NCBI RefSeq assembly: GCF_008016535.1 | Contig: NZ_SAXY01000044.1 | Location: 1 to 56,982, forward strand | Direction of reading: 5' to 3' | DNA: 56,982 nt | Source: Brachyspira pilosicoli | GTDB lineage: Bacteria > Spirochaetota > Brachyspiria > Brachyspirales > Brachyspiraceae | Shown here: positions 1 to 26,905 of the stretch, in pieces | Layout: every line of letters begins with the position of its first letter | Position numbering within the stretch: the first letter of the stretch is position 1 | Made by a program: the position numbers and the translations under genes | The notes under the pieces: generated by a model | What the model saw: only the letters and a program-made list of their open reading frames with translations | Told to the model about the DNA's origin: nothing | The model's database searches: none

Positions 1-477
1 CTAAGTAAATTGATAAACTGTTTTTCTGCCTAATTTGATATATTTAGTGTCTATTTGAACTATTTTGCCTTCTTTTTGTATTTTAGAGACAAATTTTCGT
101 TTATCATATCGCTTCTTTTTCTTTTTTGTTTTATATCTCCAAAGATTATTTCTTTTTAGTACATTCTCTATAGCTGTAACACCTATCTTAATGCCTTCAC
201 GATTTAAATATGCTTTAATATAATGCTTACCTCGATATTCTTTAGTATAGAGTTTAATAATTAAATTAATAGCTTCTTGATTATTAAAGATATTTGGGGA
301 AGTTTTTGGTCTAGTGCTAAAATTGGCGACAGTTCCAGTGTCTTTATATTTTTTAAGCCAAGCATAAAAAGTAGATTTGGGTATTTCTTCTATCTTTAAA
401 AATCTTTTAATATTTTTAGTTTCTAATGCTTCATCCACTATAAATAATTTAAATTCTGTGCTATAATCTTTTTTCAT
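1..477 (-). pseudogene. IS481-like transposase, N-terminal part ending early
   Basis: The 158 residues contain an N-terminal helix-turn-helix (IPKSTFYAWLKKY, about residues 33-45), a second HTH-like segment (YRGKHYIKAYLNREGIK) and the start of a DDE integrase core (IVQIDTKYI, about 140-148). Members of this family usually run to about 300 residues. Here a TAG stop sits at bases 3-1, directly after YQFT, where relatives usually continue with a residue and then Asp into the catalytic core. A one-base loss would explain the stop, but the DNA beyond it is outside the window. An AAGGA ribosome site precedes the ATG. Most likely an inactive or frameshifted copy. Confidence 0.7.
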
Positions 478-645: not shown

Positions 646-1926
646 ATGATGAAAAATAATGTATTAATAATAGATGATGAAGAAGATATTTTAAATGCAT
701 GCAAAAATGTATTAGAAGATGAAGGATATGATGTTGATATTGCCAAGAGCTATGATGAGGCTTTAAAAACATTTAATGACAAAAAAGTAGATTTAGTATT
801 TTTAGATGTATGGCTTCCTAATGTAGATGGTTTGGATATATTATCAAATATAAAAAATAAATATCCTAATACTAATGTCATTATGATGAGCGGGCATGCT
901 GGGGTGGAAACTGCGGTAAGGGCTACAAAAATGGGTGCTTATGACTTTTTAGAGAAACCTATCAGCATTAGTAAATTATTATCTTCCTGCGATGAAGTAT
1001 TTAAAAAAGAAAATGCTCAAACTAATAATAATGCTTCAAACAATATAAATACTCATCATCATAAATCTAATAACAAATATAAAGTAAAGCAAAAAACTAT
1101 TGCTAAAAGTATAGTAATAAGCGGTTTTGCATTAATGGAAGGAAGAAAAACAGCACTTACTTTAGTGCCTGCAGAAGTAAATACCGGCATAGTTTTTGTG
1201 GATATTAATACAAACACTCAAATAAAACTAGACCACACCAACATACTTTCAAAAGATAAATCAGGTGCGGTAAACTCTACAGCATTAGTTGCAGGAAACA
1301 GATATATAAAAACAACCGAGCATTTCTTGGCAGCACTTCATATGATGGGCATAACAAATTTAATAGTAAAATGCGACGGAGAAGTTCCTAATGTTGATGG
1401 TTCTGCTTTGGTATTTTGCGATGCTTTGAAAGAGGCGGGTTTTGTTGAGCAGGATGATTATATAGAGCCTATAGTGATAGATGAAACTCTCACTTATGGA
1501 AATGTGAATGATAATGAAACTTATATAATACTTTCTCCATACAATGGTCTTGAGGTGAGTTTGCGTATAGACTTTGCTGGCAGCATTGGAGTTCAGGAGT
1601 ATACATACAAGTTTGATAATTTTAAGCAGTTTACTGATGAAGTGGGAAGGGCGAGGTCTTTTAACACTATAGATAATATTGATTATGCTCAAAAGATGGG
1701 TATGGCTGGAAGCGGAATGATAGGAAGCCATATACTTCTTTGTGATGGAAAGGTAATTAATACAAAACTTCATTTCGATAATGAGTTTGTAAGACATAAG
1801 ATTTTGGATATAATAGGAGACTTGTATATATTAGGAAGACCTATAATAGGAAAGGTGCAAGCTAATAAATCTTCACATTCATTTAACCATTCTGTTGTAC
1901 ATGATCTTGCTAAGAGATATTTATAA
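646..1926 (+). CDS. lpxC: Receiver domain fused to UDP-3-O-acyl-N-acetylglucosamine deacetylase (LpxC)
   Basis: Residues 1-120 form a CheY/NtrX-type receiver: acidic pair D10-D11, phosphoacceptor D54 (FLDVWLP), switch S82 and K104 (LEKP). A His/Asn-rich linker (about 121-145) leads into a complete LpxC (about 150-426), the zinc deacetylase that commits to lipid A synthesis. LpxC landmarks are TTEHFLAAL (E225, H226), VPNVDGSA, FVRHKILD (H384, D388, zinc ligands) and H411 in SSHSFNH. LpxC normally stands alone at about 300 residues, so the receiver is an addition. Two Met codons open the frame; the first is used here, with AGGA 10 bases upstream. It is followed by a sigma factor 17 bases on, suggesting one transcript. 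Family assignment is firm; phosphorylation control of deacetylation is inference. Confidence 0.92.
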   Translation: MMKNNVLIIDDEEDILNACKNVLEDEGYDVDIAKSYDEALKTFNDKKVDLVFLDVWLPNVDGLDILSNIKNKYPNTNVIMMSGHAGVETAVRATKMGAYDFLEKPISISKLLSSCDEVFKKENAQTNNNASNNINTHHHKSNNKYKVKQKTIAKSIVISGFALMEGRKTALTLVPAEVNTGIVFVDINTNTQIKLDHTNILSKDKSGAVNSTALVAGNRYIKTTEHFLAALHMMGITNLIVKCDGEVPNVDGSALVFCDALKEAGFVEQDDYIEPIVIDETLTYGNVNDNETYIILSPYNGLEVSLRIDFAGSIGVQEYTYKFDNFKQFTDEVGRARSFNTIDNIDYAQKMGMAGSGMIGSHILLCDGKVINTKLHFDNEFVRHKILDIIGDLYILGRPIIGKVQANKSSHSFNHSVVHDLAKRYL

Positions 1927-1942
1927 AGGACAGCTAAAATTA

Positions 1943-2797
1943 ATGCCAAATAGTAGAACAAGGACTAATTTAGAAGAAAATAATAATATATCCTTATATT
2001 TTGCAGACGCTAAAAGAGAAAAACTTCTCACAAGGGAAGAGGAAATAGAATTAACTCAAAGGCTAAAAAAAGGCGATTCTCAGGCTAGGGCTAAACTTAT
2101 AAGAAGCAATTTGAGGTTTGTAATAAGCATTGCTAAGCAGTATAAAAACAGCGGTTTGCTTTTAGAAGATTTAATAGGCGAAGGAAATTTAGGGCTTATA
2201 ATAGCAACTGATAGGTTTGACCCTGATAAAGGATATCATTTTATTTCTTATGCGGTTTATTGGATTAGGCAGAGCATACTAAGGGCTATTAATGAAAAAT
2301 CAAGACTTATAAGGCTTCCTTTAAATAAGGCTATGGATTTGGTGGATTTGGAGAGGGCTGTTCATCAATGCTGCTATAAAACTGGTCATATGCCTGATGT
2401 TGATGATTTGGCTTCTATATTAAAAAAAGAGCCTAGAGAAATTAGAAATATTATGGCTATGAATAATGAATATGTGTCGCTTGAAAAAGATTTTAATATG
2501 GACGGCGTTAAAGACAGATTAGTTGATGTAGTTGAAGATAAAAACAGCAAAACTGTAGAAGACATATTATCTGATAAAGAGCTTACTGAAGAGTTAAAAA
2601 TCGCTATGGAAGAGCTTTCTGATATAGAAAAAGAGATAATCAATGCAAGATACGGTCTTGACCAAGAGAAAAAGACATTAAAAGAGGTTGGAGAGAAGTA
2701 TTCATTCACCAAAGAACGCATAAGACAGATAGAAAAAAAGGCTCTTAAAAAAATGCACTCCAAAAGATATAACTCTCTTAAAGATTTCTTAAACTAA
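1943..2797 (+). CDS. Group-2 RNA polymerase sigma-70 factor
   Basis: A 284-residue sigma-70 family protein. Region 2 is complete: SNLRFVISIAKQYKNSG, LIGEGNLGLIIATDRFDPDKG and the -10-recognition segment FISYAVYWIRQSIL. Region 3 follows, and region 4 has a helix-turn-helix (TLKEVGEKYSFTKERIRQIEKKALKKM). The long N-terminal region 1.1 and spacer of a housekeeping RpoD are absent, so an alternative (RpoS-like or group 2) factor is more likely. The frame is open further upstream, into lpxC. I chose the ATG at 1943 because AAAGGA precedes it outside lpxC. The stop overlaps the next start (TAATG). Confidence 0.88.
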   Translation: MPNSRTRTNLEENNNISLYFADAKREKLLTREEEIELTQRLKKGDSQARAKLIRSNLRFVISIAKQYKNSGLLLEDLIGEGNLGLIIATDRFDPDKGYHFISYAVYWIRQSILRAINEKSRLIRLPLNKAMDLVDLERAVHQCCYKTGHMPDVDDLASILKKEPREIRNIMAMNNEYVSLEKDFNMDGVKDRLVDVVEDKNSKTVEDILSDKELTEELKIAMEELSDIEKEIINARYGLDQEKKTLKEVGEKYSFTKERIRQIEKKALKKMHSKRYNSLKDFLN

Positions 2798-3924
2798 TGT
2801 CAGGTCTTTATATACATATACCCTTTTGCACATACAAATGTAGTTACTGTAATTTTTATTCTGTCGTTAATATGAATAATATAGAAATATATAAAAACTA
2901 CATAGAAGCACTTATATTAGAATTAAAACTAAGAATAAAAGATTATAATGAAGAAATAAATACAATATACTTTGGAGGAGGCACTCCTTCAGTATTTAAC
3001 GCTAATTTACTAAAATATTTGCTAGACAACATATTAAATATTCTCAAAAATTATCAAGACATAAAACTAATAAAAGAAATAACAATAGAGTCAAACATTA
3101 ATGATATAAACAGTGAATATATTAATTTTTTAGAAAGTGTAGAGAATATAAGAATATCCCTAGGCCTTCAAACATTCAATGAAAAATCTTTGTCTATTAT
3201 AAACAGACGCACAGAATTAGGCGAGATAGTTAATGCCCTAACACTCTTAAACGCATCTGCTATAAATAACATTTCTCTTGACTTTATATCGGGACTTCCC
3301 CTAAATGATAAGCTTCAAACAAAAAAAGACATTCTAAAAGCATTAGAAATACTCCCCAAAACAAAACATATATCGCTTTACTATTTGGAGCTTACAAAAT
3401 CATTAGAAGAGAAATGGAGGGATTATCTGCCAAAAGAAGAGGAAAGTGTAGAATATTACAAAATAGCCTCAGACACATTAAGAGATTTGGGCTTTATAAG
3501 ATACGAAATATCAAATTATGCTATTAATAATTATGAGTCAATACATAATTCAAACTACTGGAAACTAAAAAATTATTTAGGTCTAGGTGCTTCTGCTGTA
3601 GGATACTACAACAGCGAAAGATATGAAAATATAAAAAACATAAAAGACTATATTGAATATATTAAACAAAATAAAAAACCTATTAAAGAAACAGAATATA
3701 TAGATAAAGAAACACAAAAAAAAGAGTTTATATTTCTTTCTTTGAGAACTGTAAAGGGCATAGATATAAATAATTATAATAATATATTTAAAGAAAATTT
3801 TATAGACAAATATTCATCAATTATAAAAGACAATAAAATTTATTTCCTTATAACAGATGAATATTTATCTATAAAAGAAAATTATTTTAATTATGCAGAT
3901 GAGATTAGTTTATTATTTTTATGA
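2797..3924 (+). CDS. hemW: HemW-like radical SAM protein (coproporphyrinogen III oxidase-like)
   Basis: 375 residues. The N-terminus IHIPFCTYKCSYCNF holds the radical SAM cluster motif CxxxCxxC (C11, C15, C18) followed by NF, as in HemW. GGGTPS (SAM-binding glycine motif) and LGLQTFNEKSL follow. HemW proteins bind heme and act as heme chaperones, whereas HemN oxidises coproporphyrinogen; the short N-terminus and CNF motif favour HemW. Translationally coupled to the sigma factor by a TAATG overlap. Its 3' end overlaps the convergent trpR-like gene by 6 bases. Confidence 0.87.
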   Translation: MSGLYIHIPFCTYKCSYCNFYSVVNMNNIEIYKNYIEALILELKLRIKDYNEEINTIYFGGGTPSVFNANLLKYLLDNILNILKNYQDIKLIKEITIESNINDINSEYINFLESVENIRISLGLQTFNEKSLSIINRRTELGEIVNALTLLNASAINNISLDFISGLPLNDKLQTKKDILKALEILPKTKHISLYYLELTKSLEEKWRDYLPKEEESVEYYKIASDTLRDLGFIRYEISNYAINNYESIHNSNYWKLKNYLGLGASAVGYYNSERYENIKNIKDYIEYIKQNKKPIKETEYIDKETQKKEFIFLSLRTVKGIDINNYNNIFKENFIDKYSSIIKDNKIYFLITDEYLSIKENYFNYADEISLLFL

Positions 3925-4336: not shown

Positions 4337-7300
4337 TTATTTTGGTATGCCAGGAAGTATGTAGTCAAATAAAGTATAGCTTCCCTTAAATAAAGTATTC
4401 ATATCTGAAGCATTAATAATATTAGGTCTTACAGCATTATTTTTTATATATCTATAAGAATCTATAACGCCATTATTAAAGTTCATATATAAATACTTCA
4501 TAGCAGTATAATAATCTCCCGATAAATCTGTGCTGTATGTAAACATTAATTTATTATTATTTCTATCTCTTAAATATCTGAATATATCAGCATTTTTAGC
4601 AGGAGATAAGAATATATCTTCTTTATTATAAGGCTTATTGTAGTTGGTGTCTATTCCTATATAGTGAGTAAGAGGCACTTTTCTTTTTCCATTAGCATAA
4701 CCAACAGCTAAACTCTCTAATGATGTGTAAAAATTAGTTTGAGTATTTAATTTAATATTAGCCCTGCCTATATTAATAACGTCCATAGGCACGTACTTTA
4801 ACTCTCTTATCTTAATAACATCAGCATTCTTAAAGTCATTAAAATAAGCAAAAGGTATAGTAAATAAATTAGGATAAGAGCCTGTAATATAAACAGTCTT
4901 CACCCTTGAAGCATTTTTAGAAACACTAGAAGATAGCATTTGAGATTCTAATGTTCTTAATGCTTTTAGTCTTTCATTGGCATTAGGAGCATTCGTAAAT
5001 GCGGTTAAACTACTTCTCAATTTGTCAATAGATACAAGGGAAGATTTTTTTACTTCATTATCACCCACAACATAGCTGTAAGAAGTGTATTTATCATCTT
5101 CATAAGAATAGAATATAAACATAGTATTAGTGTTTTCATTACTAAATATGTTATATGCATTATAAATATTCTTTCTAAAATCGCTCTCAGGCACTCTTAT
5201 TTTATTTAGAAGTCCGTATATATAGCTTGGCTTATCTTTATAAAGCGAATAAAACAAATTGGCAAATGATGAAATAGTATTAGCTTCAAATATATACTGA
5301 TTGCCGTAAATATAATCCATAGTTAAGAATATATTAGCTTCATTTGTAGTTTTATTATCTAATATGGTATTTGCAACTGTGAGTATTTGATTTGTATTTG
5401 TCATTAGAGTAAGCAAGTTTGTTACTTTATCTAAAGGAGTTTTAGCATATATCAAATCATAAAGCACTGCTATTTCTAATATTTTATTTTTGTTTGTGCC
5501 TTTAGTTCTCTGTGCTATATAATTTACATACCTTACATTATTTTCTACAGTCTCCCCTGACTTTAAGAATCTTGACAATGTACGAGGTGTAAAATATTCA
5601 TCTACTAAATGATAATTTTCATTTGTGTATAGATACATAAAATGCAAAGCTCTTCTAGCACCTTTAACTGCCCCCTCATCTCCGAGTCTTCTATAAACAG
5701 GAAGCATCGCCTTCATAAAATAGTAGGCATTAGAATCGCTTATATTACTGTAGGAGGAAGCAAAATATTTATATCCGTCTTCAGATAGATTGTATGCAGT
5801 GTTAGTGTCTTTTGCATTATATCTATCTTCTATAAAATAAGCATAATTGTCCATAACCTCATTAGGAGATTGTGAGTAGCTTATAATATTAGAAATCATG
5901 CTAACAGAAGACGTTTTTTTGTATGATGAGAGTAAACGGCTTTTGAAATTATAAGTTTCATTTGAAAGAGTGGTCATGCTATTATCTGGCTTTCCGTATA
6001 CTGTAAATAAATTGTTGTCATAGCCTTTCATGCTCTCTTCCAAAGAATTAGTTACAAGTCTTTGGAAATAATTAGTATAAAACATTATTCTTGAATATGT
6101 ATTAGAATTGCCTACCACTAATGCTATATTATTAACTTCTTTTAATACTTCTTTATTTTCATCAAAAGTTTTCTTGTCTGCATAAAGTATGTAGAAATTC
6201 TTTTTCATCAAGTTTGATATATCAGAAGCTTTAGTGTCTGTAATATCCACAACCAAAGGCACATAGGAGTTAGTTAATAAATCCTCAAAAGGTATAAATC
6301 TAAACTTTCTTACTCTGTTAGCAGAGCGGGTGGTGTTATTAGTATATAGATTAGTGCTTTCTTCATTATTATTATTTTCTACATAATTAACCTGCATCAC
6401 TCTTACATTATTTGAAGAATAGTTGGCATTAACATTATTTGTAAGAAGAGAATTGCTCGCAGAAGAAGATGATGCTGTCATATCTATGTTTTTTCTGTCG
6501 CTTCTATTAACTCTGTAAAAAGAAATTAATCTGTTATCAACATAAGCAACCTTTGGAGGAAGCATATATTCGGTAGAATCATAAAGCTCTCGCACAAATG
6601 CGTCATTACTAACCATAACAATAGGACTCTCACCAATATGAGTAACATAATTTTTTGTTTTTATTAAGTCATTAGTTTGATAATAGAAATAAGTCTTTTT
6701 ATTCTCCCTCACAAATCTATAACCCAAATAGGTATCCCATATTAAAGTTTCATCACTACGCATTGATTTATCTATATCACTAGCCTTCACATCGCAAATT
6801 ACTATATGTTTTATAGGTGTATTTTCAAAAGTTTTAATAGCCTCTTTTTCATACTCTGTAATTTCTTTTAGAGATGATGCTTCTAGCTTTTTGTCATAAT
6901 TAGCTGTTACTGCAGACAAATATTTTTGATAAGCATAGAGAGCTTTTTCATATAGTTTATAATAATCTCTAAGATAATAGTTATTCTCTCCGAGTGTATA
7001 GAGTCTTTTATCTAAAAAATCCTTACGCATGTCTATTGCATCAAACATAGCAAGTATATTAATGCTCGCATCAGGATAATTGCCTTCCAAAAACTCTATT
7101 ACTTTATACCTCGCCTCTTCAAGTATAGGGTTATTTTCTTCTGCAAAGGTAATCATAAACACGCTTTCTCTTAATCTCTGCAATATCCTAAACACATACA
7201 TTACAGGCTCATCAAGACTGTCCGGATAAATATCTCTATACTTCTCACTAAAATCTATTAAAGTAGTAAGTATAGCAATCTCCTCAACTGCAAAAGCATT

Positions 7301-10300
7301 AACCTTAGCCTTAGAAAAAGCAGATATATATTCCCTCGCCGCCTCTTCAATATTGCCCGCAAGCTCATAGGCCTTAGCCAAATTGTATAGAATAATTATT
7401 TCAGTTTTTAAGTCCACAGGGAAGTTTGAGTTTGATGAAAGAATATATTTATATCTGTCTATAGCATTTTTAAGCATATAAAGTCTTTGAACATTAACAT
7501 CATGCATGCTCATATCCAAAGAGCCGTCATTTTTCTTTCTGTTAAGCATTAAATCATTAGCTTCAGCAGTAAGTTTCAAAGCCATTATATATTGAAAAGC
7601 TGCTATATGCGAATATAATAGTAATCTGTCTTTAGAGCTTACGCTGTTATTTGTAGAAAGTTCTTGAAGAGTTTTTACAGTAGTAAATAATTCCATAAAA
7701 AAATCTCTTCTCATAGCAGTTAAATCATTTTGAGATAAATATCTTAAATAAAGCGAAGATAAGCTCAAATAGTTTTTAGCATCGTTTTGAGCATTTTCGT
7801 ATATTAAACTAGGGTTATTGTTTATAGCATTAGAGTTTAGAGTTTTTCTGTATTCTTCTATAGACTTTCTAAAAGAGATAACAGAATTAGAAACAGAGCC
7901 TTGCCTATAATATAAATAACCTTCATTGTTGTAGTAGGTAGAAAGCATTAGAGGCTGTATTGATTTTTTAGGCTTATCTTTAATAATATAATTTCTATAA
8001 GAAAATAAAGCCTCTCTTGCCTCAGAATATCTACCCATCTTCTCATAAAGCTCTTGATATATAGAATAGAGCATCTGCTGTTTATCGACATTAAGAGGCT
8101 CACCAGGTATATATCCTCCAAAAGAAGCAAGCCCTAAGTTTACAACATTAATATTAGCACCATATAAAGTAATACTTACATAATTAGGATTATATGAAGA
8201 AGAATCTAAACTGTCTATTTTTGCCTTCACATTATCGCAGTATTTTAAAGCATTATTATAATCTTCAAGTTTTAAGTAGCAAGCAGCTATAAGAAGTTCA
8301 TTAAGTTCATTTTGCTCTACATTGTTTGTAATTATAGTATTTCTTTCTAATAATGATTCAATAGCTTTAGTGTAGTCTTTTTGTTCAATAGCTGCAACTG
8401 AAGTGTAGCCTACTATTTTGTATACTGCTTCACTGTCTCCAAGTCTTTCAAAAATCTCTCTTGCTTTATTATATTCTCTATAAGCTCCATTAATATCATT
8501 GTTCATCCACAAAGAATACCCGTAAAAGAAATGATACCAAGCCTTGCTTTTTTCACTTCCAACACTGTTTAATAAAGTTTCTGCTTCTTTATATTCATTA
8601 GCCGCATCAGAGTATCTGCCGTTTATTAAGTAAGAGTTTGCAAGCATTATAGATACAACATTAGGTTTAGTTTTTATCTTGCTTTTAGCCATTATAAGGG
8701 CGTCAATTATTTCACTTTCCAAATTTGGCGTTTGAAGAGTTAATTGATTGTAGCCTATATATTTATCATTATTTACATTATTGTCTTTATAGCTTGGCAC
8801 TAATTCCATTATGCTTTTATATGTTTTATCGCTTTGAAGAACCTGCATCTTTAAGGCTTCTGCAAATGTAAGCATTTCAGCCTTTTTTATATAATAATTC
8901 TCTTCATCAGGATAAAGGAATATAGCAAAATCCATATAAGAAACTGCTTTATCTACTATAGTATTAAAAGACTTATTCAAATACAAATAAAATCCGTCTT
9001 CTCTTTTTTTCTCGCTAAGCACATACCTTTCGCTGTCATATTGTTTAGACATAGCTATGCCGTAATATCTATTAGCCAAATAATAATAAGCGTTAGCAAG
9101 CTCTGCATGTGCTGCATGCTCTGAATATCTTGTAGATAAAAGAGTTCTCTCCCTCTCTGCTATGGTCTGTTCAAGTGATTCTATAGTGCTATATGCTCTA
9201 AGCCCGCTTTCAATAATTCTCGAAGAAGCATTAGCATCGTTAGGATTATAAACTAAAACCTCTTGATAATTATCATAAGCAATATTATATCTACTTTCAT
9301 TATAAGCATTGTCTGCTAAAGTTCTATAATAGTTGGCAAGTATTCTTTTGGATTCTTTTGCTTCATAAGTAGGCTCAAAGTTTTTGCCTCCGCTTTTTAC
9401 AGCATTCACTAATAATTGATAAGCTGCATCATCTTTTTTGTCTAATAATATTTTAGCATTAGCATAATAACCCAAAGCAAGCATTATATCATTTTTTGAT
9501 TCCATGTACGGCTGAAATAAATTTGTAGCTGCATCATAATTTTTGGCAAGTATAAGTCCGTCTAAATATATAAGCCTGCTTGCTACAGATAATGGTGCAT
9601 AGGGGTGTGCATTATCTATTATTGTTTGATAAGGAATCTTTGAATCTTTTATAAAATCTTTTGCTATTTCAAGTCTGTCTGCAAATATTAAATCTTTTCT
9701 TCTGTAAGGTTTATTATACAAATCCTCATCTGCCGGATATTTATAATTATTATCTTCAAGTGAATGAGAATATAATTTTGATATTAATACATATAAATCT
9801 TTGCTGCTGTCATAGTCTATTATACTATTTAGAATTTCTAATGTTGAAGCATTTGTGTTATTTCTATTATATTTTTCATTAGCAGATATATAGCCCGCCC
9901 AAGATAAAGCATTTACTATGTTTTCATTGCTTGTGATAATTGATTCATTTGTAGTATAATATGAAGCATTAAGCCAATTATCATTAGTGTCAAAATTTTC
10001 ATCTATCTTTAAAGCCAAAAATCCGTAAAAAGTATTGGTATATTCCGTTGTTAGAACATTTTTTGAAGTATTATAAATATCTATATTTTTATTTGTATAA
10101 GCCTGACACATTACATCGAAATATGCCTTTGATACATTACCCCTATCTTCATCTGAAGGGAAATACTCTGAAAACTTCTTTATTACTTCAACTTTCCTAT
10201 CATACGGCAAAGCAACAAAGGTATTATACATATCATTGGCATTAGCATCTTTAATGAAATATTCTTTGGTAGAGCCCATAGTTACTATACTAGTGCCTGA

Positions 10301-11266
10301 AGTACTTAATACATAGCTTCCCACCAAAGCAGATTCATAAGCTACATTGAATGTGCTTAAACTTGTATTTTCTTCTAACACATAATATTGTCCTGTAGAC
10401 AAAGAATAAGACATTAATCTTCTTTTATCATTATATGTTAAATTACCGTCTTTATCAGTATCGTTTATTATTTCAAAATAAATTATAGTATCATTGTTGT
10501 AGAATGACGGATTAAACTTAAAGGTTTTAGTATCAGTTAAAATCATCAAATTGGTTTGAATATCATTTGTGATGTAGGAGTTAGCTTGCAAGTCTATTAC
10601 TGCTAATTGTGAATAAGGCTCTCCTATTTTTGAAGTAATAAAAGCAATATGCCTATCATTAAAAGAGAATGTAGGAGAAGAGGCTTCTATATCTGCTCTT
10701 TTAATTATTTCTTTACCATTTGGCTTAACTGTAAAGAGTTTTTTAATATTATTTTCTCTGTCTGAAACGAATGCTATCATATCGGCATTATGAGAGATTT
10801 CTGGGTCTGTATCATAGCCTTTATAATCTGTTATTCTCACTATACTTTGCTCTAAGTTCTCTAAATTATTTTTTGAAGTTCTAATACCAAGATTAACTAA
10901 CTTGTATAAATAAATATCAGCAAAAGCATCATCTCTGGTAGAAGAAAATACCAAATATTTTGATTTACTGTCCACTGATACAGAAGAGTCTATTCCCGGG
11001 CTTCTTGTGAGTCTAAAAGTCTCAAGCGTATAAGAATCTACAGCAAATATATCTGTGTTTCCTGCATTTTCCCTAGAATAATATACCCAAGTTCCTTCCC
11101 TATCTATAACTGAATCTAAAACAGGATTACCCTCTCCGGAAGTTAGAGAATATCTTTTATACTCTCTTAGGAAAGATCTGCTGTTAAAAATGGAATCTGC
11201 ACTCTTTTGACTGGATGCACAGGATAATAAAATAAATAATGGTAATAATAATAACCTTAATTTCAT
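4337..11266 (-). CDS. Giant lipoprotein with TolB-like propeller and TPR arrays
   Basis: 2309 residues, the largest gene here. The signal peptide ends in the lipobox LLSC (Cys16), so it should be membrane-anchored outside the cytoplasm. Residues about 45-300 hold PD40/TolB-type propeller repeats (GTWVYYSRENAGNTDIFAVD, KYLVFSSTRDDAFADIYLYK, DMIAFVSDRENNIKKLF, HIAFITSK). From about 370 to 1450 the protein is mostly helical with TPR-like pairs such as YNIAYDNYQEVLVYNPNDA and GRYSDAANEYKEAETLL. The last 250 residues contain VKTVYITGSYPNLFTIPFAYF, faintly like the start of a CHAT peptidase domain, but no catalytic His/Cys pair is evident. An envelope scaffold is likely; function unknown. Confidence 0.8.
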   Translation of the reverse strand: MKLRLLLLPLFILLSCASSQKSADSIFNSRSFLREYKRYSLTSGEGNPVLDSVIDREGTWVYYSRENAGNTDIFAVDSYTLETFRLTRSPGIDSSVSVDSKSKYLVFSSTRDDAFADIYLYKLVNLGIRTSKNNLENLEQSIVRITDYKGYDTDPEISHNADMIAFVSDRENNIKKLFTVKPNGKEIIKRADIEASSPTFSFNDRHIAFITSKIGEPYSQLAVIDLQANSYITNDIQTNLMILTDTKTFKFNPSFYNNDTIIYFEIINDTDKDGNLTYNDKRRLMSYSLSTGQYYVLEENTSLSTFNVAYESALVGSYVLSTSGTSIVTMGSTKEYFIKDANANDMYNTFVALPYDRKVEVIKKFSEYFPSDEDRGNVSKAYFDVMCQAYTNKNIDIYNTSKNVLTTEYTNTFYGFLALKIDENFDTNDNWLNASYYTTNESIITSNENIVNALSWAGYISANEKYNRNNTNASTLEILNSIIDYDSSKDLYVLISKLYSHSLEDNNYKYPADEDLYNKPYRRKDLIFADRLEIAKDFIKDSKIPYQTIIDNAHPYAPLSVASRLIYLDGLILAKNYDAATNLFQPYMESKNDIMLALGYYANAKILLDKKDDAAYQLLVNAVKSGGKNFEPTYEAKESKRILANYYRTLADNAYNESRYNIAYDNYQEVLVYNPNDANASSRIIESGLRAYSTIESLEQTIAERERTLLSTRYSEHAAHAELANAYYYLANRYYGIAMSKQYDSERYVLSEKKREDGFYLYLNKSFNTIVDKAVSYMDFAIFLYPDEENYYIKKAEMLTFAEALKMQVLQSDKTYKSIMELVPSYKDNNVNNDKYIGYNQLTLQTPNLESEIIDALIMAKSKIKTKPNVVSIMLANSYLINGRYSDAANEYKEAETLLNSVGSEKSKAWYHFFYGYSLWMNNDINGAYREYNKAREIFERLGDSEAVYKIVGYTSVAAIEQKDYTKAIESLLERNTIITNNVEQNELNELLIAACYLKLEDYNNALKYCDNVKAKIDSLDSSSYNPNYVSITLYGANINVVNLGLASFGGYIPGEPLNVDKQQMLYSIYQELYEKMGRYSEAREALFSYRNYIIKDKPKKSIQPLMLSTYYNNEGYLYYRQGSVSNSVISFRKSIEEYRKTLNSNAINNNPSLIYENAQNDAKNYLSLSSLYLRYLSQNDLTAMRRDFFMELFTTVKTLQELSTNNSVSSKDRLLLYSHIAAFQYIMALKLTAEANDLMLNRKKNDGSLDMSMHDVNVQRLYMLKNAIDRYKYILSSNSNFPVDLKTEIIILYNLAKAYELAGNIEEAAREYISAFSKAKVNAFAVEEIAILTTLIDFSEKYRDIYPDSLDEPVMYVFRILQRLRESVFMITFAEENNPILEEARYKVIEFLEGNYPDASINILAMFDAIDMRKDFLDKRLYTLGENNYYLRDYYKLYEKALYAYQKYLSAVTANYDKKLEASSLKEITEYEKEAIKTFENTPIKHIVICDVKASDIDKSMRSDETLIWDTYLGYRFVRENKKTYFYYQTNDLIKTKNYVTHIGESPIVMVSNDAFVRELYDSTEYMLPPKVAYVDNRLISFYRVNRSDRKNIDMTASSSSASNSLLTNNVNANYSSNNVRVMQVNYVENNNNEESTNLYTNNTTRSANRVRKFRFIPFEDLLTNSYVPLVVDITDTKASDISNLMKKNFYILYADKKTFDENKEVLKEVNNIALVVGNSNTYSRIMFYTNYFQRLVTNSLEESMKGYDNNLFTVYGKPDNSMTTLSNETYNFKSRLLSSYKKTSSVSMISNIISYSQSPNEVMDNYAYFIEDRYNAKDTNTAYNLSEDGYKYFASSYSNISDSNAYYFMKAMLPVYRRLGDEGAVKGARRALHFMYLYTNENYHLVDEYFTPRTLSRFLKSGETVENNVRYVNYIAQRTKGTNKNKILEIAVLYDLIYAKTPLDKVTNLLTLMTNTNQILTVANTILDNKTTNEANIFLTMDYIYGNQYIFEANTISSFANLFYSLYKDKPSYIYGLLNKIRVPESDFRKNIYNAYNIFSNENTNTMFIFYSYEDDKYTSYSYVVGDNEVKKSSLVSIDKLRSSLTAFTNAPNANERLKALRTLESQMLSSSVSKNASRVKTVYITGSYPNLFTIPFAYFNDFKNADVIKIRELKYVPMDVINIGRANIKLNTQTNFYTSLESLAVGYANGKRKVPLTHYIGIDTNYNKPYNKEDIFLSPAKNADIFRYLRDRNNNKLMFTYSTDLSGDYYTAMKYLYMNFNNGVIDSYRYIKNNAVRPNIINASDMNTLFKGSYTLFDYILPGIPK

Positions 11267-23849: not shown

Positions 23850-24407
23850 TTATTTTAATAAATTACTTAAATCTTTAAAATTATGTGCTGTTGAACCTTC
23901 TATAAATCCAAAAAGAACCATCTCTGTACTTATAATATTAGCCCCCAATTTTCTCATCTGCTCTAAACCAATTTGCTTATCATTATTAGTTCTAGAACCG
24001 CAAGCATCAGCAGCCACATAAACATTATATCCATTTTGAATCAAATGATAAACACTATAATATACGCATACATGTGTCTCAGTTCCAAATACTATAATAT
24101 TTTTTTTATTTAAACTATTAAACTCCTCAACAAAATCTTCAGTAGCAAAAACACTAAAATTAGTCTTAGAAAATAATTTATGATGTTTAGGAAGTATCAC
24201 TCTCTCATCAGTAGGTCCTAACCCTTTAGGATACTGCTCAGTAACTAAAACAGGTATATTATATATTTCAGAAGTTTTTAATAATATATTAGATTTTTTT
24301 ATAACAGTATCTGCATTATCTATAGCTGCTAATAATTTACCCTGCAAATCTATACAAATATATAAAGAATTATTTTTATCTAATATAGGTTCATTCATTA
24401 ATTTCAT
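23850..24407 (-). CDS. Isochorismatase-family cysteine hydrolase
   Basis: 185 residues from the chosen ATG (24407), supported by AAGGAT 6 bases upstream; the frame is open a little further. The fold's catalytic triad is visible: Asp in YICIDLQGKLL, a Lys in the PKHHKLFSK region, and Cys in GTETHVCVYYSV. Relatives such as YcaC hydrolyse unknown amide or ester substrates; a siderophore role is unlikely without ent/dhb genes nearby. A TATAAT lies just upstream (complement of about 24426-24431), so it may have its own promoter. Confidence 0.85.
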   Translation of the reverse strand: MKLMNEPILDKNNSLYICIDLQGKLLAAIDNADTVIKKSNILLKTSEIYNIPVLVTEQYPKGLGPTDERVILPKHHKLFSKTNFSVFATEDFVEEFNSLNKKNIIVFGTETHVCVYYSVYHLIQNGYNVYVAADACGSRTNNDKQIGLEQMRKLGANIISTEMVLFGFIEGSTAHNFKDLSNLLK

Positions 24408-24451
24408 AAATAAATCCTTAAAAATATTATACAAACATTAAAAATACAAAT

Positions 24452-24484
24452 AAGGGGAAACAACATAAACATTTGCTTCCCCTT
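24452..24484 (-). terminator. Intrinsic terminator of flaA
   Basis: AAGGGGAA (24452-24459) pairs with TTCCCCTT (24477-24484). On the minus strand the hairpin is followed by ATTTGTATTTTT. It lies about 30 bases past the flaA stop. Confidence 0.85.
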
Positions 24485-24512
24485 AAAAAACTTTCAAAAA
24501 CTCGCTTAATTA

Positions 24513-25439
24513 TTATTGAGCAGCAGCAGCATCTTGTTGTTGCTGAGCATCGCCGCCATTAATACGTCTTTGTTCTAATTGTTGTAATTCAAAAGCTTCA
24601 CGAACTCTAGCATTTTCAATAGCTTGTTTTCTTTCGTTCTCAGTTTTTAATAACTGCCAAGTAGCTTCATCATCTATATCTTCTTCGAAGTCAACAACTA
24701 CTACATCATATTCCATAGTTATATCTTTAACATAAGTGATGAAATCTCCGCCTTGAGTATCTTTAGTTCTATAGAAACCTAAAGAGTCTAATCTTACAGA
24801 AGGAATCATTCTAGGATAAAGAGGTCTTCTTACTAATACTCTGTCGCGAACATTAGCTAAATACTCTCTGTTTTCCCATCTTAATTGTCTCCAACCGCTG
24901 AAGTAAAGAGCACCCATAGGATAAGATTTTAATTCACCTAATTCATTTTGTAAGTTTACAAAATAGCTAACTAAATAATTACGTCCATATACCCAAGAAC
25001 TAATAGATTTAATTTCGCCAACATTTTTTACTATACCTTTACCACCTGTATATTTTGTACCATCAGTTCCGCCGTACATTTCAAGCTGAAAAGCAGGTTT
25101 TACTAAAGCATAACTATTCCAAGCTTGTAGAGGGAAATGTACTCTTATACCAAGAACTTTACCAGCTTCCCAAGCTCCGTTATTACCTTTACTATCTACG
25201 TTAGTAACATATGAATTCCTGCGATTTTCTGCTAATCTAGCAGATTCATTTAACCATACTACCCAGTTATCATTGTAAAGATTTTGCTGAACAGAAACTA
25301 CTTCATTTGTATCATCTCCTGCTGGCTGCAAGTTATCAGCATTACCTGTTATAGCAAAATCAATTAAAGTTGAATTTGTTACACCGTAAGCAGATGCAGC
25401 AACAAAAATAGAAGCTAATACTGCGAATAACTTTTTCAT
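24513..25439 (-). CDS. flaA: Flagellar filament outer-layer (sheath) protein FlaA
   Basis: 308 residues. The signal peptide [19 protein letters not shown] and the mature sequence are characteristic of the Brachyspira FlaA sheath protein, which coats the FlaB core of periplasmic flagella. Typical segments are [44 protein letters not shown] and [11 protein letters not shown]. The C-terminus is rich in Gln and Ala ([12 protein letters not shown]). A sigma-70 type promoter and a terminator bracket it, so it is monocistronic; spirochaetal flaA is indeed known to use sigma-70 rather than sigma-28 promoters. Confidence 0.94.
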
Positions 25440-25485
25440 AATTTATTGCACTCCTTGTACTAATTAATAAGCATAATAATAATAT

Positions 25486-25514
25486 TTTATACACTAAATC
25501 ACTTAATTTGTCAA
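25486..25514 (-). promoter_or_regulatory. Sigma-70 promoter of flaA
   Basis: Minus strand TTGACA (complement of 25509-25514), 17-base spacer, TATAAA (complement of 25486-25491). The start of transcription would give a leader of about 40 bases with AAGGAG 12 bases before ATG. Confidence 0.8.
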
Positions 25515-25654
25515 GTAGATTTAATAAAAATAATTAAATCTATAAAAATAATATGTAATTTTAGTTGACATAATCTTTAAATTAAAATACAAAATATAAC
25601 TTATTTATTAAGCATATTTTTTATTATAATTTTATTAAAAATATTTTTTTTATA

Positions 25655-26905
25655 TTATTTAAAAAACTCCATTAATGATTTCTTTATATTAAACTTAAAC
25701 TTTTTCTTTTCTCCTGTTTTTTTAGCATTAGGTATATTAACTTTTGTAGCCTCATCTAAACTCATCATAAGTATGCCAATAACAGCAGAATAAGCAGGAT
25801 TATTAGCAATATCTGTAATACCGTAAATATTATTAGGAACTCCTATTCTCGCTGTAATAGGCATAGAACCTTTCACTGTGCTTTGATACGCTTTAGCCAA
25901 TTCAACCAAACCGGGAAGCAAAGAACCTCCCCCTGTAAAAACCATACCAGCAGATAAAGAATCTATATACTTCATCTTTGATAATTCTTTGCCGCATAAA
26001 CTAAGTATCTCTTCTACCCTAGCCTGTATAATTTCTGTTAAAAACTTTTTAGGTATAGCCTTAGTTTTTCCGTTTGTAGTAGGAACTTCAACTATTTCTC
26101 TGTCGCCTACCATATCTATAAAAGCACAGCCATATTCGCATTTTAATTTTTCTGCTGTAGGAATAGTTACTCTTAAACATTCAGCTATGTCATTAGTGAT
26201 ATGCTGACTTCCTATAGGTATAACAGCAGTATGCCAAACAGAGCCTTCCAAAAATACCATAAGCGATGTAGTAGAATGTCCTATATCAAATACAACCACT
26301 CCAAGCTCTTTTTCATCTTCTGTAAGACAAGCCTCAGCACTTCCGCGTACGCTTACTATAAAATCTTTACCGCTGAACTTCATTTTATTTAAAGTTCTTC
26401 TTAAGTTTTCGCTCACATATTTAAGCCCAGTAATTAGATGGACTTTAGTTTCTAATCTTGTTCCAGACATCCCTATAGGGTTTTTTATCTCATCTTGTCC
26501 GTCTAAAGAATATTCCTGTTCTATTGTTTCTATAATCTCTATATCTGAAGGCAAACGAACATTTTTAGCACTTTCTAATACTCTCTCTATTTCTAATTGA
26601 GTTATCTCTTTATCTTTTGTATTAACACCTATAACCCCTTTACTATTCATGCCTTTTATATGGTCGCCGCCTATAGTAGCTATCACATCAGGAGCCTGAA
26701 GCCCTGCCATATCTTCTGCTTTGTTGATAGATTTCTCTATAGCATCAGCAGCAGCATCTATATTTACTATAATACCCTTTCTAATGCCGTCACTCTCACT
26801 CTCCCCTATTCCTATAATATCAAGTTTATCCTCATTAACCCTTGCTATTACAGTTTTTATTGATGAAGTGCCGATATCTACACCAGCTATTATTGGCTCT
26901 TTCAA
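25655..26905 (-). CDS. ftsA: Cell division protein FtsA
   Basis: 416 residues. Actin/Hsp70-fold ATPase: phosphate-1 motif VDIGTSSIK (about 9-17), SHS2/1C domain (about 85-160), phosphate-2 VFDIGHSTTSLMV and adenosine motif VFTGGGSLLPGL. The C-terminus FKFNIKKSLMEFF is an amphipathic helix of the kind that tethers FtsA to the membrane. FtsA anchors the FtsZ ring. The start is TTG with AGGAG 7 bases upstream. ftsZ and ftsQ are not adjacent; flaA lies downstream instead. Confidence 0.94.
   Translation of the reverse strand: MKEPIIAGVDIGTSSIKTVIARVNEDKLDIIGIGESESDGIRKGIIVNIDAAADAIEKSINKAEDMAGLQAPDVIATIGGDHIKGMNSKGVIGVNTKDKEITQLEIERVLESAKNVRLPSDIEIIETIEQEYSLDGQDEIKNPIGMSGTRLETKVHLITGLKYVSENLRRTLNKMKFSGKDFIVSVRGSAEACLTEDEKELGVVVFDIGHSTTSLMVFLEGSVWHTAVIPIGSQHITNDIAECLRVTIPTAEKLKCEYGCAFIDMVGDREIVEVPTTNGKTKAIPKKFLTEIIQARVEEILSLCGKELSKMKYIDSLSAGMVFTGGGSLLPGLVELAKAYQSTVKGSMPITARIGVPNNIYGITDIANNPAYSAVIGILMMSLDEATKVNIPNAKKTGEKKKFKFNIKKSLMEFFK

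Follow-up and report, generated by a model that had tools for sequence, protein, structure and literature searches.

The window analyzed here (a stretch of 56,982 nucleotides from Brachyspira pilosicoli; assembly GCF_008016535.1, contig NZ_SAXY01000044.1) contains a gene, rec-lpxC, that encodes a response-regulator receiver joined by a linker to LpxC (Table 1). Lipid A synthesis is controlled mainly at LpxC, which is also a drug target; rec-lpxC is the only LpxC gene in the B. pilosicoli genome. Both LOS production and the genes lpxA-D have been reported for the related B. hyodysenteriae.

Table 1. Positions of rec-lpxC, its domains and key residues, and the two downstream genes in the window.
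Feature	Position	Strand	Remarks
rec-lpxC, receiver-LpxC fusion, 426 aa	646..1926	+	start ATG 646 or 649
NtrX-type receiver domain, residues 6-113	661..984	+	Pfam, hallmark residues, structure match
Receiver phosphoacceptor D54	codon 805-807	+	
Flexible linker, residues 122-146	1009..1083	+	fast-evolving, without internal start codon
LpxC catalytic domain, residues 149-422	1090..1911	+	Pfam, zinc ligands, structure match
LpxC zinc ligands H226, H384, D388	1321-1323, 1795-1797, 1807-1809	+	
RpoD/RpoS-like sigma-70 factor, 284 aa	1943..2797	+	probable ATG 16 bp downstream of rec-lpxC
hemW, radical SAM haem chaperone	2797..3924	+	gene after sigma-70 factor

The receiver matched the Pfam Response_reg model over nearly its full length (E = 4e-32), and the C-terminal domain matched positions 1-267 of the 268 in the Pfam LpxC model (E = 3.8e-69); the protein also scored above the cut-off of the NCBIfam lpxC equivalog (200.8 vs. 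187.25 bits). The receiver contains D54, S82, and K104 as well as the acid pair D10/D11, and presents the hallmarks W56 and S82-G83-H84. The LpxC domain contains H226, H384, and D388, which, by homology with known LpxC, we take to be the zinc ligands, and E225, K385, D392, and H411, which we take to be catalytic; both sets of residues are invariant in 11 divergent fusions. An AlphaFold2 model (mean pLDDT 91.3, pTM 0.82; alignment of 49 sequences) presented pLDDT values <50 solely in a short, disordered part of the linker (residues 131-140), which follows a long final receiver helix (residues 108-131). In this model, residues 146-426 resemble LpxC crystal structures (Z about 35), while residues 5-122 resemble the receiver of Brucella NtrX (structure 4d6x; Z = 21.4, 42% identity). 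The protein thus satisfies the criteria for a receiver (fold, phosphoacceptor Asp, acid pair, Ser/Thr, and Lys), with the motifs of the NtrX type (LDxW[LM]P and SGH), and those for LpxC (catalytic domain, zinc ligands and catalytic residues, NCBIfam cut-off), although its deacetylase activity is inferred by homology. Its sequence stops directly behind the catalytic domain (...LAKRYL) and lacks the kind of C-terminal tail found in E. coli LpxC. No FabZ domain was found by Pfam, and the score against NF009667 was 164.9, compared to a cut-off of 465; because the central AAA+ domain and C-terminal Fis-type HTH are also absent from the protein (Pfam), it is not classed as an NtrX.

Receiver, variable linker, and complete LpxC form one protein in which both domains are intact. 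The alternative, that the two domains are made or act separately owing to an internal start codon, cleavage, or an annotation artefact, can be virtually ruled out. A disordered, fast-evolving linker makes cleavage conceivable, but no ATG, GTG, or TTG codon lies between the receiver and LpxC in the rec-lpxC of the window, no start codon is conserved in the linker among relatives, and rec-lpxC is a single open frame in every complete gene copy; the first ATG after the receiver is codon 164, already within LpxC, making separate translation unlikely. A preliminary description, which had claimed a complete receiver (with D54, S82, and K104) followed by a complete LpxC with its zinc ligands, therefore held by Pfam, NCBIfam, AlphaFold2, and structure comparison; separate production of the domains, which would have refuted it, found no support.

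The order rec-lpxC, sigma-70 factor gene, hemW is common to Brachyspira and its sister genus, suggesting that the three genes probably form one operon; this order is not kept in the third genus of the family, nor in the order-mates. hemW is tied to the receiver-LpxC finding only by this probable operon, with no direct link shown. Through the sigma factor, which is probably co-transcribed, the supply of lipid A may be coupled to a programme for stress or growth phase. Further downstream, positions 4337-11266 on the minus strand encode a protein of 2309 aa that carries a lipoprotein-like signal at its N-terminus along with TolB/TPR-like repeats (recognized by eye only). Near-identical transposase-like ORFs (MKKDYSTEFKLFIVDEAL...) recur in the genome (window 1-477, minus strand; L128:4499-5434, L128:7457-8392, and L138:4211-5146); one lies shortly before rec-lpxC on the other strand, and two are close to the orphan kinase described below.

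Exactly one LpxC match was found in each of the 29 Brachyspiraceae genomes (three genera), in frames of 427-452 aa, one of them truncated by a contig end; all of those read were fused. Presence of the fusion in all 29 family genomes, along with purifying selection (see below), rules out chance, misassembly, or a pseudogene as its source. Across the spirochaete phylum, LpxC was detected in 110 of 392 sampled genomes, and most of the other listed frames are about 300 aa long. A search for the architecture across spirochaetes, as proposed in the preliminary description, found it also in order-mates of the Brachyspiraceae (G162 and G150) and in two more families (G060, G050, and G038). Separately, some f31-family spirochaetes (G144, G175, G186, G192, and G198) encode a very divergent LpxC-like protein (40-68 bits), which mostly accompanies a normal LpxC in the same genome.

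The expectation that this architecture would be a spirochaete curiosity failed. In a first scan outside the phylum, the MAGs L141 (Thermoanaerobaculales) and L142 ("Deltaproteobacteria") were found to encode receiver-LpxC, and the MAGs L143 and L144 (both Nitrospinota) a receiver-AAA-LpxC form of 703-710 aa; in each of these genomes (G392-G395) the fused LpxC is the sole LpxC. LpxC was present in 65 of 77 genomes of the Nitrospinota phylum, nearly always in frames of about 460-800 aa (mostly 660-800 aa), and all 14 proteins read were receiver-AAA-LpxC. For the phyla of L142 and L141, 80 genomes picked for low LpxC scores were searched with a whole-fusion profile. The fusion was found in 54 of 58 tested genomes of the L142 phylum (Desulfobacterota/Myxococcota-like), as receiver-LpxC in 44 and receiver-AAA-LpxC in 10, and receiver-LpxC was found in 8 of 22 tested genomes of the L141 phylum (Acidobacteriota-like); since only low LpxC scorers were tested (from samples of 297 genomes per phylum), these counts are lower bounds, i.e., at least 54 and at least 8. 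The receiver-LpxC fusion is thus a deep LpxC subfamily that spans at least four bacterial phyla. The receiver-AAA-LpxC form (L143, L144, L221-L232, and L269-L272), nearly phylum-wide in Nitrospinota and sporadic in the Desulfobacterota/Myxococcota-like phylum, differs from NtrX in that LpxC occupies the place of the HTH and the AAA domain lacks GAFTGA. Three ORFs of 934-1354 aa (G562, G526, and G649) were considered as kinase-receiver-LpxC hybrids and rejected, as Pfam identified only receiver and LpxC; in two of them the kinase is encoded separately, by an ORF that overlaps in a different frame, and the extra length is likely to represent a chance open frame.

In trees built from the LpxC domain alone, with the receiver excluded, one branch (support 100) split 76 fused domains from 103 stand-alone domains, and a mixture-model tree repeated the split (30 fused vs. 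40 stand-alone rows; support 100). Despite a complete catalytic domain, zinc ligands, and fold like those of stand-alone LpxC, the fused proteins differ in their N-terminal receiver and form a clade apart, with stand-alone LpxCs from 14 other spirochaetes on the opposite side of the split. Fused LpxCs therefore share a single origin as an LpxC subfamily; repeated independent fusion was rejected, as the tree requires just one change. Within the fused clade, proteins that have the AAA domain do not group apart from those that lack it (5 changes in all). Brachyspirales form one long branch within the clade and the other two spirochaete families are placed elsewhere in it; from this tree we infer that spirochaetes likely gained the fusion at least twice.

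The fused receivers are of NtrX type. In 78 fused receivers (one per genome), D54, D11, K104, W56, G83, and H84 were invariant, with Ser or Thr at position 82 and Asp or Glu at position 10. Among NtrX receivers compared, W56 was found in 21/24 and SGH or TGH in 24/24; the other B. pilosicoli receivers compared all lack W56, and GH was found only in the NtrC-like one. An origin of the receiver from NtrC or PhoB was rejected, as the motifs of these regulators are missing from the receiver, which groups with NtrX instead (support 93 against the others). The receiver trees gave no clear answer on where the Brachyspirales receiver came from, the sequences being too short to resolve this.

The receiver of rec-lpxC is under strong purifying selection; between Brachyspira species, dN/dS was 0.06-0.16 for the receiver, 0.04-0.07 for LpxC, and 0.3-1.7 for the linker (as some synonymous distances are near saturation, these values are usable as a contrast only). 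GAFTGA, the sigma-54 motif, was found in 0/33 records (about 21 genomes) of retained AAA domains, compared to 14/20 NtrX-type controls; the DNA-activating half thus decayed and the phosphorylation site did not. A receiver serving only as a non-signalling scaffold (i.e., a fusion relic or a folding or dimerisation module) is a very improbable alternative. The absence of functional data and the retention of the fusion in several lineages in which the AAA domain decayed or was lost would be compatible with it, but the phosphorylation residues are intact in all 78 receivers, from several phyla, while GAFTGA has decayed, suggesting selection on the phosphorylation site. One possible route of origin leads from an NtrX with receiver, AAA, and HTH through a form with receiver, decayed AAA, and LpxC to receiver-LpxC; the fusion offers a plausible path from transcription factor to enzyme regulator. 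A deltaproteobacterial MAG (L205:241-6411) has a full NtrX-like regulator in an apparent lipid A cluster (fabZ-lpxA-lpxI-...-lpxB-ntrX, gene names assigned by eye), possibly a picture of the pre-fusion state.

A kinase of about 740 aa is encoded upstream of the fusion, on the same strand and at a distance of 15-110 bp, in 14 of 77 fused loci; these loci belong to other phyla and include both receiver-LpxC and receiver-AAA-LpxC architectures, and the five kinases examined are all NtrY by domains (NtrY_N-HAMP-PAS-HisKA-HATPase). The remaining 63 loci have no adjoining kinase, in some cases because the contig ends. No kinase adjoining rec-lpxC was found in the window or in other Brachyspiraceae. 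Besides CheA proteins, three ordinary histidine kinases were identified in the B. pilosicoli genome. A PhoR-like kinase adjoins a PhoB-like regulator and an NtrB/AtoS-like kinase adjoins an NtrC-like regulator, while the third kinase (590 aa; G000:C61, about 24181-25953) stands alone. The best NCBIfam match of this orphan is the Leptospira LIC_11548 kinase model (HK_LIC11548), a full-length model with which it aligns over 15-584; the orphan retains the AHEIKNPL H-box motif, and no Pfam match for NtrY_N or PAS was found in the Brachyspira orphan. In a kinase tree, the Brachyspirales orphans, the NtrYs adjacent to fusions, and the spirochaete NtrYs form one clade (support 95), with the other two B. 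pilosicoli kinases outside it. In several Brachyspiraceae, a small gene for a divergent receiver-like protein (about 120 aa) lies beside and convergent with the orphan (L285:5133-5501, L287:2173-2541, and L292:7515-7871); its product could possibly modulate this kinase.

In all 20 fusion-free spirochaete genomes examined, an NtrX-like regulator is encoded behind the orthologue of the orphan, on the same strand, one of these regulators being a 185-aa protein with a receiver only; no such regulator was found behind the orphan in Brachyspirales. A search with spirochaete NtrX gave two strong matches in each of the 29 Brachyspiraceae, i.e., the receiver of rec-lpxC and a full-length NtrC-like regulator, which is beside its own kinase in the B. 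pilosicoli genome. The sole NtrX-type receiver in B. pilosicoli is thus that of rec-lpxC, and the sole NtrY-type kinase without a neighbouring regulator is the orphan. Because the two genes are unlinked, their pairing in Brachyspirales is inferred by elimination and from relatives. A phosphate donor other than the orphan (i.e., the NtrB/AtoS-like or PhoR-like kinase, a CheA, or acetyl phosphate) is considered unlikely. Lack of linkage in Brachyspirales and possible cross-talk speak for such a donor; however, the PhoR-like and NtrB-like kinases each adjoin their own regulator, the adjacent kinase in other phyla is NtrY, and the rec-lpxC receiver has the hallmarks of NtrX rather than NtrC.

We consider it likely (probability about 0.66) that an NtrY-type kinase phosphorylates the receiver and thereby sets the activity or stability of LpxC, although no biochemical or genetic data exist. 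The preliminary description had suggested that a fused receiver would let a sensor kinase act directly on LpxC; this is supported by genomic evidence (the site conserved in 78/78, NtrY adjoining 14/77, the orphan NtrY of Brachyspirales, and strong selection on the receiver), while the effect of phosphorylation and its direction are not shown. For the cognate histidine kinase it had called for, the NtrY-like orphan is a candidate without phosphotransfer data. The protein would represent a two-component response regulator with the committing enzyme of lipid A synthesis itself as output domain; a membrane histidine kinase of the NtrY type, probably the orphan in B. pilosicoli, would sense the cell envelope and phosphorylate or dephosphorylate D54, and the state of D54 would alter the attached LpxC in its activity, oligomeric state, location, or stability. 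Lipid A flux would then be set after translation, instead of at transcription by an NtrYX pair. The signal sensed by the kinase, phosphotransfer from NtrY, and any resulting change in LpxC are all inferred from sequence alone, and whether phosphorylation activates or inhibits cannot be read from it. Receivers of the NtrX class commonly dimerise when phosphorylated; for this reason, the mechanism we prefer is an oligomeric change that would open or block the LpxC active site, with stability control or recruitment to the kinase at the membrane as alternatives.

It is improbable that the receiver governs only the amount of LpxC rather than catalysis, with phosphorylation exposing the protein to, or hiding it from, a protease or adaptor, similar to the receiver-based adaptors RssB and CpdR. 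E. coli LpxC is regulated by proteolysis (PMC12444477), and a fused enzyme without the E. coli-type tail would need another handle; however, no adaptor or degron was identified, and many non-enteric LpxCs are also tail-less and are not known to be degraded in this way.

The proposed phosphorylation of the fusion by NtrY resembles the NtrY/NtrX system, as the fused receiver has NtrX hallmarks, NtrY is found beside many fusions, and NtrYX is known to affect the envelope and the lpxC transcript. NtrYX lowers lpxC transcript levels in Rhodobacter sphaeroides and Caulobacter (PMC7240162, PMC12444477), and a 2025 review names two species in which NtrYX represses lpxC (PMC12444477); in R. sphaeroides, loss of NtrYX increased the lpxC transcript 8.8-fold and doubled LPS by an indirect route (PMC7240162). 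In contrast to NtrX, the output of the fusion is an enzyme and not a DNA-binding transcription factor, and control would be post-translational. The Desulfovibrio regulator DVU2934 also belongs to a two-component system acting on lpxC, but binds upstream of the gene (PMC3333781). The bifunctional LpxC-FabZ of Bacteroidetes, Chlorobi, and Verrucomicrobia is likewise a natural LpxC fusion, but its partner is a C-terminal enzyme and it has no signalling domain. N-terminal receivers also control attached enzymes in CheB, PP2C/SpoIIE, and GGDEF regulators; these outputs make or remove signals or modifications, whereas that of rec-lpxC is a committed biosynthetic step.

Receiver-enzyme proteins and two-component transcriptional control of lpxC were thus already known. 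No report of a response regulator with an LpxC output was found in the open-access literature searched (subscription reviews of output domains were outside the scope), and the words receiver, fused, and fusion are absent from the 2025 review of LpxC regulation (PMC12444477). Within that literature, and with public genome annotation outside the scope, LpxC as a response-regulator output appears to be new, and the statement in the preliminary description that no case has been characterised held.

To our knowledge, control of LpxC is largely unknown outside enterics and a few other proteobacteria. An enzyme bearing its own regulator makes LPS tuning testable with one protein and one kinase, and LpxC inhibitors meet a two-domain protein as their target in intestinal spirochaetes. 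If the proposed reading is true, bacteria with this fusion would switch outer-membrane synthesis through direct phosphorylation of the enzyme.
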